Part shown: positions 16,214-19,878 of the stretch, piece after piece | Position numbering within the stretch: the first letter of the stretch is position 1 | How the letters are laid out: each line of letters starts with the position of its first letter | DNA from: Candidatus Bipolaricaulota bacterium | GTDB lineage: Bacteria; Bipolaricaulota; Bipolaricaulia; Bipolaricaulales; Bipolaricaulaceae | Length of the DNA: 64,000 nt | Direction: 5' to 3' | NCBI GenBank assembly: GCA_938084715.1 | Contig: CALKES010000005.1 | Coordinates: 62,001-126,000, forward strand | Made by a program: the position numbers and the translations under genes | Notes under the pieces: model-generated | What the model was told of the DNA's origin: nothing | Database searches by the model: none | What the model saw: the letters and a program-made list of their open reading frames with translations, nothing else

Positions 16214-17437
16214 TCAGGGAGAGGGGCAAGCCGGGCCGGCCACGATCCGGCCGTCCCGGATCACGGCCCAGGCCAGGTTCTGCCCCATCCAGTAAGGGAT
16301 CTCCGCGAACGTCCCTGCGTCCCAGACCACGAGGTCGGCCCGTTTCCCCACCTCGACCGACCCGAGTTCGTGGGCCAGGCCCAGGGCCGCAGCGGCGTTC
16401 AGGGTCACCGCGGTCAGCACCTCCTCCGGGCTCAGCCGGAGCTTCAGGACGGCCAGGCTCATCACGAAGGGCAGGGAGGCCAAAGGACAGGATCCGGGGT
16501 TGAAGTCCGTGCCCAGGGCCACGGGCACCCCCGCCTCCAGGAGCTCCCGGGCCGGAGGATAGGGCTCATCGAGGAGGAAGGCCGTTCCGGGAAGGAGCAC
16601 GGCCACCGTGCCCGCCCTTGCCAGGGCCTTGATCCCTTCTTCTGAGGCGTGCAAAAGGTGCTCCGCCGAGGCCGCGGAAAGCTCGCCCGCCAGCTCCGCC
16701 CCGCCCACAGGGGCGAGTTCGTCGGCGTGGATCTTGAGCCCCAGCCCCAGGCCTCGTGCAGTGGTGAGGATCCGGCGCGCCTCCTCCACGGTGTAGAACC
16801 CGCGGTCGCAGAAGACATCGCAGAACCGGGCGAGCCCTTCTTCGGCCACCCTGGGGAGCATCTCTCCGATGAGGACCTGAACGTACTGGGCTCTCGGGAC
16901 CTCGGGCGGGAAGGCGTGGGCGCCCATGAAGGTGGGAACCAAAGTCACCGGGAGCTCCTGGGCCAGCCGCTGGATGGCCCGGAGCATCTTGAGCTCGTCC
17001 TCCGGGGTCAGGCCGTAGCCGGACTTGACCTCCACAGCCGTGACCCCTTGGGCCAGCATGCGCAGGAGCCTGGGCCTGGCCAGCTGGACGAGCTCCTCTT
17101 CGGAGGCGGCGCGGGTGGCCCGGACGGTGGTGAGGATCCCGCCGCCCGTGTACTTCTCCCCCCGGGCGCGGGCCAGGAACTCCTGGACCCGGTTCCCTGC
17201 AAAGACAGCATGGGTATGGGGATCCACGAGCCCAGGGGTCACGAGGCGGCTTTCGGCATCGAGCGTGGGGCCGGCGGACCGGGGGCCCCGGCCTCGCCCC
17301 ACCTCCACGATCCGCCCGTCGCGCACAAGCACGTACGCGTTGCGGAGAAGGGAGATCTCCCCTTGGGCGGGGCCGCGCCGCGCCGCCGTGCCCGTCGGGA
17401 TGGCGAGCTGGCCGATCCCATAGACGAGGAGGTCCAC
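16214..17437 (-). CDS. hutI: Imidazolonepropionase
   Basis: Third enzyme of histidine degradation, an amidohydrolase-fold metalloenzyme cleaving imidazolone-5-propionate. 407 residues. Metal ligands are visible: VDPHTHAVFAG (HxH), a His in TFMGAHAFP, HADELAPVGG, and the Asp in LGTDFNPGSCP. VRATRAASEEEL and VEVKSGYGL are typical HutI stretches. GTG 17437 was chosen because a -10 TATACT (17445-17450) lies seven bases upstream; this fits VDLLVYGIGQL as N-terminus. Divergent from hutH with 64 bases between. No hutU or hutG in the window. Confidence 0.93.
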   Translation of the reverse strand: MDLLVYGIGQLAIPTGTAARRGPAQGEISLLRNAYVLVRDGRIVEVGRGRGPRSAGPTLDAESRLVTPGLVDPHTHAVFAGNRVQEFLARARGEKYTGGGILTTVRATRAASEEELVQLARPRLLRMLAQGVTAVEVKSGYGLTPEDELKMLRAIQRLAQELPVTLVPTFMGAHAFPPEVPRAQYVQVLIGEMLPRVAEEGLARFCDVFCDRGFYTVEEARRILTTARGLGLGLKIHADELAPVGGAELAGELSAASAEHLLHASEEGIKALARAGTVAVLLPGTAFLLDEPYPPARELLEAGVPVALGTDFNPGSCPLASLPFVMSLAVLKLRLSPEEVLTAVTLNAAAALGLAHELGSVEVGKRADLVVWDAGTFAEIPYWMGQNLAWAVIRDGRIVAGPACPSP

Positions 17438-17444
17438 GCTGAGG

Positions 17445-17450
17445 AGTATA
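17445..17450 (-). promoter_or_regulatory. -10 element of hutI (leaderless)
   Basis: TATACT on the minus strand, seven bases before the GTG at 17437. Confidence 0.65.
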
Positions 17451-17487
17451 CTCGCCGCTCTCGCTACCCTGCGCGAAATCCGGCGGC

Positions 17488-17493
17488 TATACT
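17488..17493 (+). promoter_or_regulatory. -10 element of hutH (leaderless)
   Basis: TATACT eight bases before the GTG at 17502. Together with the hutI -10 it defines a compact divergent control region of about 40 bases where a shared regulator could bind. Confidence 0.65.
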
Positions 17494-17501
17494 GCCTCTC
17501 C

Positions 17502-19001
17502 GTGATCGAGCTCGATGGGCACCTCACCCCGGAAGACGCGGAGGCGATCGCCCTCCGGGGGACCCGGGTCGCCCTCGCCCCCTCGGCCCGGGCCAAGGTC
17601 GAGGCGTCCCACCGGGCCCTCCAGGCAATCCTCGCCCGGGGGGAACCGGTGTACGGGGTGAACACCGGGTTCGGGGCCCTGTCCACGGTCCGGATCCCCG
17701 ACGGAGAGCTTACCCAGCTCCAGCGGAACATCGTCCTGTCCCACGCCACCGGGGTCGGGGCCCCCCTCCCCGTGGAGGCCGTCCGGGGGATGCTTCTGTT
17801 CCGGCTGAACTCGTTTCTCCAAGGGGCGTCCGGCGTCCGGCCGGAGCTCGTGGAGCTCCTGGCGGGGATGCTCAACGCCGGGGTCCACCCGATCGTCCCC
17901 GAACAGGGCTCCGTCGGCTCCTCCGGGGACCTCGTGCCGCTGGCCCACCTCGCGCTGCCCCTCCTCGGGGAGGGGCGGGCCCAGATCGGGGGGGAGGAGC
18001 TCCCCGGGGGAGAGGCCCTCCGCCAGGCGGGCCTCGCCCCCCTCCCGGCCCTCGCCCCGAAGGAGGGCCTCGCCCTCCTCAACGGGACAGCCTACATGCT
18101 CTCCCTCCTCTTCCTCGCCTGGACCTACGGCTGGCGGGCCCTGCGGGGAGCCCTCGGGATCGCGGCCCTCTCCTTCCAGGCCCTCCGGGGGAGGCTGGAG
18201 GCCCTGGACCCTCGGATCCACGCCCTCCGCCCCCACCCCGGCCAGGCCCAGGTCGCCTCCTGGCTTCGGGAACTGCTCGAGGGAAACGCCCTCGCGGACT
18301 CCCACCGGGGGGACGTCCAGGATCCCTACTCCTTGCGCTGCCTTCCCCAGATCCTGGGGCCGGTCCTCGAGACCCTGTGGGCGGTCGAGGGGCGGCTGCG
18401 GGCGGAGATGAACGCAGCCACGGACAACCCCCTGATCCTCCCCGACGGGGGGGGAACCGCCCTCGCCGGGGGGAACTTCCACGGGGAGATCCTGGCCCTG
18501 GCCGGGGAGTGGCTCGCCGTGGCCCTGGCCGAGCTCGGGGCAAGCTGCGAGCGGCGGCTGTCCCTCCTCCTCACCGGGGAGACCCGCGGCCTCCCCCCGT
18601 TCCTTTCCCCCCGGCCGGGGACGAACTCCGGGCTCATGCTCCTCCAGTACACCGCGGCCGCCCTCGCCGCCGAGAACAAGGTCCTCGCCCACCCGGCGGC
18701 GGTGGACTCGATCCCCACCTCGGGGGGGAAGGAGGACCACAACGCGATGGGGGGCACCTCGGCCTGGAAGGCTCTGCGAATCGCGGAAAACGTCCTGGCC
18801 CAGGTGGCCCTGGAGGGGGTGGCGGCGCGGTGGGCGGCGGCCCTGGCTGGGGAGGAGGACCTCTCCCCCGCCACCCGGCCCGTCTACGCCGTCTTGGCCG
18901 ACCTTGTCCCGCCCCCGGGGGAGGACGCCTGCCTCGGGGAGGCGATCGCCGGGGTGCGGGCCGCCCTCCGGGAGGGGAGAATCGCCCCCCATGGCCTATA
19001 G
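17502..19001 (+). CDS. hutH: Histidine ammonia-lyase (atypical Ser-Ser-Gly cofactor triad)
   Basis: MIO-type ammonia-lyase converting histidine to urocanate, 499 residues. Family motifs are the N-terminal catalytic Tyr in VYGVNTGFGAL (Tyr51), QRNIVLSHATG, MNAATDNPL, GGNFHGE and DSIPTSGGKEDHNAMGG. The cofactor-forming stretch reads GSVGSSGDLVPLAH: residues 140-142 are Ser-Ser-Gly where nearly all family members have Ala-Ser-Gly. The cyclising Ser and Gly remain, so a modified MIO may still form. HutH rather than PAL/TAL is supported by divergent hutI. Its 3' end overlaps era by 11 bases. Confidence 0.9.
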   Translation: MIELDGHLTPEDAEAIALRGTRVALAPSARAKVEASHRALQAILARGEPVYGVNTGFGALSTVRIPDGELTQLQRNIVLSHATGVGAPLPVEAVRGMLLFRLNSFLQGASGVRPELVELLAGMLNAGVHPIVPEQGSVGSSGDLVPLAHLALPLLGEGRAQIGGEELPGGEALRQAGLAPLPALAPKEGLALLNGTAYMLSLLFLAWTYGWRALRGALGIAALSFQALRGRLEALDPRIHALRPHPGQAQVASWLRELLEGNALADSHRGDVQDPYSLRCLPQILGPVLETLWAVEGRLRAEMNAATDNPLILPDGGGTALAGGNFHGEILALAGEWLAVALAELGASCERRLSLLLTGETRGLPPFLSPRPGTNSGLMLLQYTAAALAAENKVLAHPAAVDSIPTSGGKEDHNAMGGTSAWKALRIAENVLAQVALEGVAARWAAALAGEEDLSPATRPVYAVLADLVPPPGEDACLGEAIAGVRAALREGRIAPHGL

Positions 19002-19878
19002 GGCGGGAACGGTCGCCGTCGTCGGCCGGACGAACGTGGGGAAGTCCACGTTCATCAACGCGGTCCTGGGCCGCAAAGTCGTCATCGTCTCCGACAAGCC
19101 CCAGACGACCCGGAACCGGATCCGGTGCATCCTCACCACCCCCGAGGCCCAGGCCGTGTTCGTGGACACCCCCGGCCTCCACCAGCCCCTGAACAAGCTC
19201 TCCGCCCACCTCGTCCGCCAGGCGATGAAGGCCCTGTCGGGGGTCGACGAGCTTGTGTACATGGTCGAGCCCACGGGCGGCGTCGACCCCTACGACGAGA
19301 CCGTCCTCCCCAAGGTGAAAGCCCTCCCCTGCCCCAAGGTCCTCCTCGTGAACAAAAGCGACCAGGCCAAGGGGAACGCCCTCCCCGAGACCCTCCTCGC
19401 CTACGAGGGGCTCGGGATCTTCTCCGACCTCGTCCCCGTCTCCTCCCTTCGGGGAACGAACCTCGAGCGGGCGCTCTCGGTCATCCTCGGCCACCTCCCC
19501 GAAGGGGAACCCCTGTTCCCCCCCGACATGCCCACCGACCGCCCCCTGGAGTTCGTGGTCGCCGAGCTCATCCGGGAGAAGATCTACCACACGACCTACC
19601 AGGAAATCCCCTACTCCACCGCGGTGACCGTGGAACAGATCACCGAGCGGGAGGACAAGCCCCTCCTGGAGATCTACGCCACGATCTACGTGGCCAAGGA
19701 CTCCCAGAAGGGGATCGTGATCGGGGCCGGGGGCCAGAAGCTCAAGGAGATCGGGCGGCTGGCGCGCCTCGAGCTCGAGGCGATGCTCGGCAAGAAGGTC
19801 TTCCTCTCCCTCCAGGTGCGGGTGAAGCCCAAGTGGACCGAGGACGAGGCGGAGATCGCCCGCCTCACCGGGGAGTAG
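18991..19878 (+). CDS. era: GTPase Era
   Basis: GTPase for 16S rRNA maturation and 30S assembly. 295 residues. G1 GRTNVGKST, G2 SDKPQTTRNRIRCI, G3 DTPGLHQ and G4 NKSD, then the C-terminal KH domain with KGIVIGAGGQKLKEIG. ATG 18991 lies inside the end of hutH, so expression may be coupled to histidine catabolism, an odd partnership. Confidence 0.95.
   Translation: MAYRAGTVAVVGRTNVGKSTFINAVLGRKVVIVSDKPQTTRNRIRCILTTPEAQAVFVDTPGLHQPLNKLSAHLVRQAMKALSGVDELVYMVEPTGGVDPYDETVLPKVKALPCPKVLLVNKSDQAKGNALPETLLAYEGLGIFSDLVPVSSLRGTNLERALSVILGHLPEGEPLFPPDMPTDRPLEFVVAELIREKIYHTTYQEIPYSTAVTVEQITEREDKPLLEIYATIYVAKDSQKGIVIGAGGQKLKEIGRLARLELEAMLGKKVFLSLQVRVKPKWTEDEAEIARLTGE

Follow-up and report, generated by a model that had tools for sequence, protein, structure and literature searches.

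Serine in Place of Alanine at the First Position of the Predicted MIO Triad of a Bipolaricaulota Histidine Ammonia-Lyase

Results

The window, a stretch of 64,000 nucleotides of Bipolaricaulota DNA that was analyzed as a whole, carries on its forward strand a hutH gene (17502–19001) for a histidine ammonia-lyase (HutH) of 499 residues. This annotation is based on the open reading frame, on matches to TIGR01225, NF006871 and PF00221, and on an AlphaFold model. Upstream and on the reverse strand lies hutI (16214–17437), which codes for imidazolonepropionase, likely from a GTG start at 17437. Scanned as 16214–17488, this gene scores 464.2 bits on TIGR01224 (cut-off 298.15). The two genes diverge from an intergenic region of 64 bp (17438–17501), in which a simple consensus scan found no sigma-70 promoter-like site; a simple scan around the gap found no terminator consensus. 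Downstream of hutH and on the same strand follows the gene for the GTPase Era (18991–19878; 330.5 bits on NF000908 against a cut-off of 237, and 257.9 bits on TIGR00436 against 116.25, scanned as 18979–19878). The era frame opens with an ATG inside hutH, so that the two genes share 11 bp (18991–19001).

The hutH frame runs from a GTG codon at 17502 to a stop codon at 18999–19001, and its translation contains EQGSVGSSGDLVPLAH. The codons TCC (17919–17921), TCC (17922–17924) and GGG (17925–17927) place Ser-Ser-Gly (SSG) at residues 140–142, the predicted precursor of the MIO cofactor, and this triad aligns with the Ala-Ser-Gly (ASG) of the Pseudomonas putida histidine ammonia-lyase (HAL) chain. 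The initial annotation had described precisely this exchange, exactly at 17919–17927, and had called the other catalytic residues intact. The alignment bears out both statements: Y51, H81, N194, Q273, Y276, R279, F326 and E411 are all present, and we take their P. putida equivalents to be Y53, H83, N195, Q277, Y280, R283, F329 and E414. These eight positions are unchanged in every alignment row with a readable residue. The xSGD motif, in which Gly and Asp come after the central Ser, is also present (S141-G142-D143); these three residues, the HAL residues and the Ser-His pair S80-H81 are invariant in 36 aligned rows. The first triad residue is Ser140 and not Ala. Because this position varies inside the family, as found here, we do not take an initial Ala as defining HutH.

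The profile scores place the protein among the histidine ammonia-lyases. It passes the hutH equivalog TIGR01225 narrowly (542 bits, cut-off 539.15) and scores 572 bits on NF006871 (cut-off 524) and 564.7 bits on PF00221. Two full-length congeners fall slightly under the TIGR01225 cut-off, with 536.2 and 537 bits. Models for aminomutases, TAL and PAL stay far under their cut-offs (325.2 vs 501, 319.3 vs 800, 308 vs 700, and 238.8 vs 519.15). The genome of the window (1.38 Mb in 38 contigs, 96.3% complete) contains a single PF00221 gene and thus no other HutH. A second copy with ASG that would have freed the SSG copy was considered and rejected on the same count. The same genome encodes HutU (G000:C31). 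Of 100 genomes in the phylum, 64 have HutU, 59 of them over the cut-off; among the 12 genomes of the genus, the profile search found none in three (G007, G008 and G010). FtcD is likewise present (G000:C8); across the family, 36 of 40 genomes have it, 34 with a score above the cut-off. With HutH, HutU, HutI and FtcD all present, the route from histidine to glutamate is complete in this genome. HutH would convert L-histidine to urocanate, from which HutU, HutI and FtcD would produce glutamate and formimino-tetrahydrofolate. For the closed Acetothermia genome Ran1, the available text of PMC6092417 describes a capacity to deaminate and use histidine. Judged from its sequence, the window enzyme is a genuine histidine ammonia-lyase (EC 4.3.1.3) in a complete route.

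An AlphaFold model built from 36 aligned HutH sequences has a mean pLDDT of 90.3 and predicts an aromatic ammonia-lyase fold. It matches P. putida HAL (1b8f) with a Z score of 43.5 and an rmsd of 2.3 over 492 aligned residues at 39% identity, and Thermoplasma acidophilum HAL (7tqr) with a Z score of 44.8. Tyrosine aminomutase (3kdz) reaches 45.3, a near tie with the HALs, so that the fold alone does not settle the substrate. The only segment of at least three residues with a pLDDT below 50 comprises residues 140–142, plausibly because these residues would be cyclized in the real enzyme, which is beyond the modeling program.

Is the serine peculiar to this one gene? A profile search of 100 genomes of the phylum detected HutH in 72, with 61 matches over the cut-off. 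We retrieved 71 of these 72 proteins, leaving out G014, where the match covers the C-terminal part only, and 69 of them have a readable triad. SSG occurs in 42 of the 69 and ASG in the remaining 27. The genus of the window comprises 12 genomes including the window's own. All 10 readable triads in this genus (the window and 9 others) are SSG; G010, whose match does not include the triad, and G014 are not counted. Loci L001 and L032–L045 duplicate the window or genomes of the phylum and do not enter the counts. As SSG is kept across the genus and common in the phylum, it is conserved and not a product of chance.

A scan of genome contigs returned, among the matches listed, 14 named records from the phylum, 8 with HutH at 79–89% identity and 6 at 61–69%. 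Thirteen of the titles name Bipolaricaulota or Acetothermia and one names Thermotoga. The latter record (L033, DYGJ01000028.1, titled Thermotoga sp.) encodes a HutH that is 84% identical to that of the window, and its title looks wrong. The HutH frame of L029 contains an internal stop codon, possibly from an assembly error or from reading past the end. Single stops were also flagged in the HutH matches of G083, G062 and G004, with assembly errors or overreading as possible causes.

Outside the phylum, the same triad was sought with DNA patterns that require the flanking residues, and hence miss any HutH that differs there; the Ser-type pattern excludes Gly. In a draw of 299 genomes from the Paenibacillus phylum, 7 of the 90 genomes with a motif match have a Ser-type first codon, in every case TCN. 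The Ala pattern occurs in 83 genomes (84 matches), and no genome contains both patterns. All seven SSG proteins from this draw can be aligned with most of the window HutH, and the three that were scanned score 669.6–714.6 bits on TIGR01225. Of 247 genomes drawn from the Acidobacteria phylum, 142 contained a match; the 146 matches in total were tallied by eye as 144 ASG, 1 SSG (G356:C168) and 1 GSG. The last is a single HutH-like motif match with a Gly-Ser-Gly triad in G181:C72. The genome-contig scan contributed 66 loci from outside the phylum, the best of at least 570 confirmed stretches by similarity to the query; the triad was read in each of them and is always ASG. Plasmid-borne HutH is ASG in six of six cases (6 of the 40 listed, of 594 records), five of them alphaproteobacterial and one haloarchaeal, so that the Pseudomonadota sample amounts to five plasmid loci. 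Serine in the first position is uncommon in these outside samples and is the majority state in Bipolaricaulota.

The history of residue 140 was followed on a quick IQ-TREE tree without bootstrap, calculated with the first triad column omitted. This tree holds 94 of 99 HutH rows (71 from the phylum and 28 others); 5 rows shorter than 400 residues were left out, and 21 of the 66 non-phylum loci were included. Ten switches between Ala and Ser are needed on this tree, at least 8 of them forced by starred branches; shuffled assignments require 31.5 on average. The proposal that SSG forms one clade is rejected by these ten switches. The initial annotation had suggested collecting SSG homologues and asking for a clade linked to hut genes. 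Of this suggestion the link persists, with hutI divergent and adjoining and with HutU and FtcD in the genome; the single clade does not.

The tree contains a clade of 59 rows, hereafter native, with 40 Ser, 19 Ala and no other residue at position 140. This position changes 7 times within the clade, which is the median of 493 columns, whereas residues 136–139, 141–144 and the catalytic positions do not change at all. Even close sisters differ, as in L112 (ASG) and L113 (SSG). The initial annotation had envisaged a changed rate or specificity; switching among such near relatives speaks for a small effect, if any. No switch is seen in the genus of the window (10 of 10 SSG), and this constancy fits either a short time or selection for Ser. 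Within the Bipolaricaulota lineage, the choice between Ala and Ser appears nearly neutral, as judged from one quick tree without bootstrap.

Codon usage at this position was also compared. Every Ser140 codon is TCN, in the 42 SSG rows of the phylum as in the 7 other SSG rows, and is therefore always one substitution away from Ala (GCN). AGY codons for the catalytic Ser141 appear in 13 of 42 SSG rows and in 8 of 27 ASG rows. The exclusive use of TCN is suggestive of a Ser140 that is exchanged with Ala rather than long fixed, the rows not being independent of one another. A search for columns that vary together with Ser/Ala140 revealed no partner in 869 column-residue tests, each with 4–6 independent pairs and hence too few for significance; the largest mean net agreement was 2.6.

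The surroundings of the catalytic Glu show a variation of their own. In the window HutH this residue is set in TSGGKEDHNAMG (residues 406–417, 18717–18752), with Gly-Lys in place of the Asn-Gln found in many other HutH. A Lys before the catalytic Glu is common to most native rows, SSG or ASG, with L018, L026 and L029 as exceptions, and it also occurs in a few non-native rows (L050, L057 and L083).

In the native neighborhood, era comes directly after hutH in 39 of 42 SSG rows and in all 19 native ASG rows; where it is missing from SSG rows (L028, L149 and L150), the contig stops within hutH or shortly past it. Apparently, hutH and era are co-transcribed, a pairing of an amino-acid catabolic gene with a ribosome-assembly GTPase that is kept across the native clade. 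The divergent hutI lies upstream in 21 of 42 SSG rows and 12 of 27 ASG rows, and some of the other rows have short flanks. At native loci such as L113, L116, L118, L121 and L130, hutI is absent from about 5 kb on each side, which means that the link between hutI and hutH is not universal.

Eight ASG rows, found in some families of the phylum, are not native (L002, L007, L015, L022, L024, L031, L144 and L147). Seven of the eight lie outside the 59-row clade, among them L144, whose long branch stands next to it; L147 fell below the length required for the tree. There is no era at six of these loci (L002, L007, L015, L022, L024 and L144), and downstream of L031 and L147 the sequence is too short to tell. 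We infer that these eight are separately acquired genes. In G057, G097, G042 and G044, hutU lies close to the non-native ASG hutH on the same contig, which suggests acquisition as a hutH-hutU unit.

Discussion

During MIO formation, the first residue of the triad gives the carbonyl carbon while its side chain stays outside the ring, the serine loses water, and the glycine gives the nitrogen. Since the first side chain is not part of the ring, a triad that starts with Ser should also cyclize, and the product should bear a CH2OH group. In the window enzyme, Ser141, the equivalent of Ser143 in P. putida, would lose water to form the methylidene, and the carbonyl of Ser140 would close on the nitrogen of Gly142. 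Ser140 would give the ring nothing except backbone atoms, with its side chain left as CH2OH where the usual enzyme has CH3. We consider it very probable on sequence grounds that the protein is an ordinary HutH with an MIO derived from Ser140-Ser141-Gly142, for which the choice between Ala and Ser is near-neutral. We also infer that MIO forms in the SSG enzyme and that its activity is close to that of the ASG relatives; an effect of Ser140 on rate is possible. We take the PROSITE signature PS00488 to allow Ser at the first triad position.

According to the available text of PMC3903478, replacement of the catalytic Ser lowered activity more than a thousand-fold in two enzymes described in its references and practically abolished activity in its own enzyme. 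A search of the open-licence literature for Ser-Ser-Gly or SSG together with MIO and histidine ammonia-lyase returned no biochemical data on an SSG ammonia-lyase, and Thr-Ser-Gly in combination with methylidene was likewise not found there. In what is available of PMC9002059, on the evolution of MIO enzymes, the six triad terms looked for were not found.

Several other explanations for the unusual triad have to be weighed. TCC and GCC are one base apart, and the initial annotation had named a sequencing error at 17919 as the observation that would overturn its reading. Such an error in sequencing or assembly is practically out of the question, since the same SSG stands in all nine of the other congeners with a readable triad and in 42 of 69 readable rows of the phylum. 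That the gene encodes a dead or dying enzyme, with the triad change as a sign of loss, is hardly credible either: residue 140 does depart from the textbook triad, but in 59 rows, 40 of them SSG, neither S141, G142 and D143 nor the catalytic residues change, and the frame is open with a conserved neighbor. The initial annotation had also raised the idea that the enzyme acts on another substrate. The borderline hutH score and a fold that matches tyrosine aminomutase as well as HALs (Z of 45.3 vs 43.5–44.8, near ties) could be taken to point to a different amino acid or to an aminomutase. Little else speaks for this proposal, and we regard it as very unlikely. The aminomutase, TAL and PAL scores are far below their cut-offs, and the one PF00221 gene of the genome leaves no other candidate for HutH; hutI adjoins the gene, and HutU and FtcD are encoded elsewhere in the genome. 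The Ser-His pair S80-H81 and E411 are conserved as well, and a Ser/His substrate motif, to which S80-H81 corresponds, is described in the available part of PMC11432326.

Greater weight is due to the idea that a serine-derived MIO is functionally distinct. Its CH2OH group could form hydrogen bonds in the active site and tune electrophilicity, rate, pH optimum or stability, with Ser being selected in the SSG genera. This would agree with the far higher frequency of SSG in Bipolaricaulota (42 of 69) than in the draws from the Paenibacillus phylum (7 of 90 genomes with a match) and the Acidobacteria phylum (1 of 146 matches), and with its retention throughout the genus of the window (10 of 10 readable genomes). 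Against it stand the 7 changes within the native clade, which extend to the close sisters L112 and L113, and the failure to find a column covarying with residue 140, although 4–6 independent pairs cannot reach significance. On balance we think selection for a distinct MIO unlikely. The milder version of another proposal is the same distinct CH2OH MIO selected in the phylum; its full version, in which Ser140 is also dehydrated to a dehydroalanine conjugated with the MIO ring, strikes us as quite improbable. If true, dehydration of Ser140 would provide an extended electrophile of natural origin, whose absorbance would be shifted and whose reactivity would be changed.

We return to the ordinary enzyme with a near-neutral first residue. 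Because the exchange is real, common in the phylum and repeatedly switched, SSG is most likely a mild variant of the usual HutH that is typical for this lineage, and for the cell it probably matters little. The available portions of PMC3903478 and PMC12203737 call ASG "strictly conserved" and highly conserved, respectively, and that of PMC11432326 reports ASG in all HALs compared there, yet one phylum is mostly Ser-first and has switched several times. This result is a warning against motif searches that demand Ala in the triad. Sister enzymes with ASG and SSG also represent natural matched pairs for the effect of the first residue in a self-made protein cofactor.

Among characterized enzymes, P. 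putida HAL (1b8f and mutants) has its family, fold and catalytic residues in common with the window HutH; it differs in the triad (ASG vs SSG) and at the catalytic Glu (ANQED vs GGKED). The best sequence match among solved structures is T. acidophilum HAL (7tqr, 367.3 bits), where the triad is a single X in the chain sequence. AdmH, the phenylalanine aminomutase of Pantoea agglomerans (3unv), is an MIO enzyme of the same fold that differs from the window HutH in substrate and reaction (30–32% identity); its first triad residue is, we assume, Thr and not Ala. A more distant parallel is GFP. As we understand its chemistry, a tripeptide with Ser first, followed by x-Gly, closes to an imidazolone ring, as we propose for the window triad. 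GFP is an unrelated protein with a tyrosine-based chromophore and without lyase chemistry. According to the available text of PMC4555221, this chromophore forms from Ser65 (or Thr65)-Tyr66-Gly67, which shows by analogy that such ring closure tolerates Ser and Thr in the first position. The first side chain of the HutH triad may similarly be a near-neutral passenger, like Ser65 in GFP.
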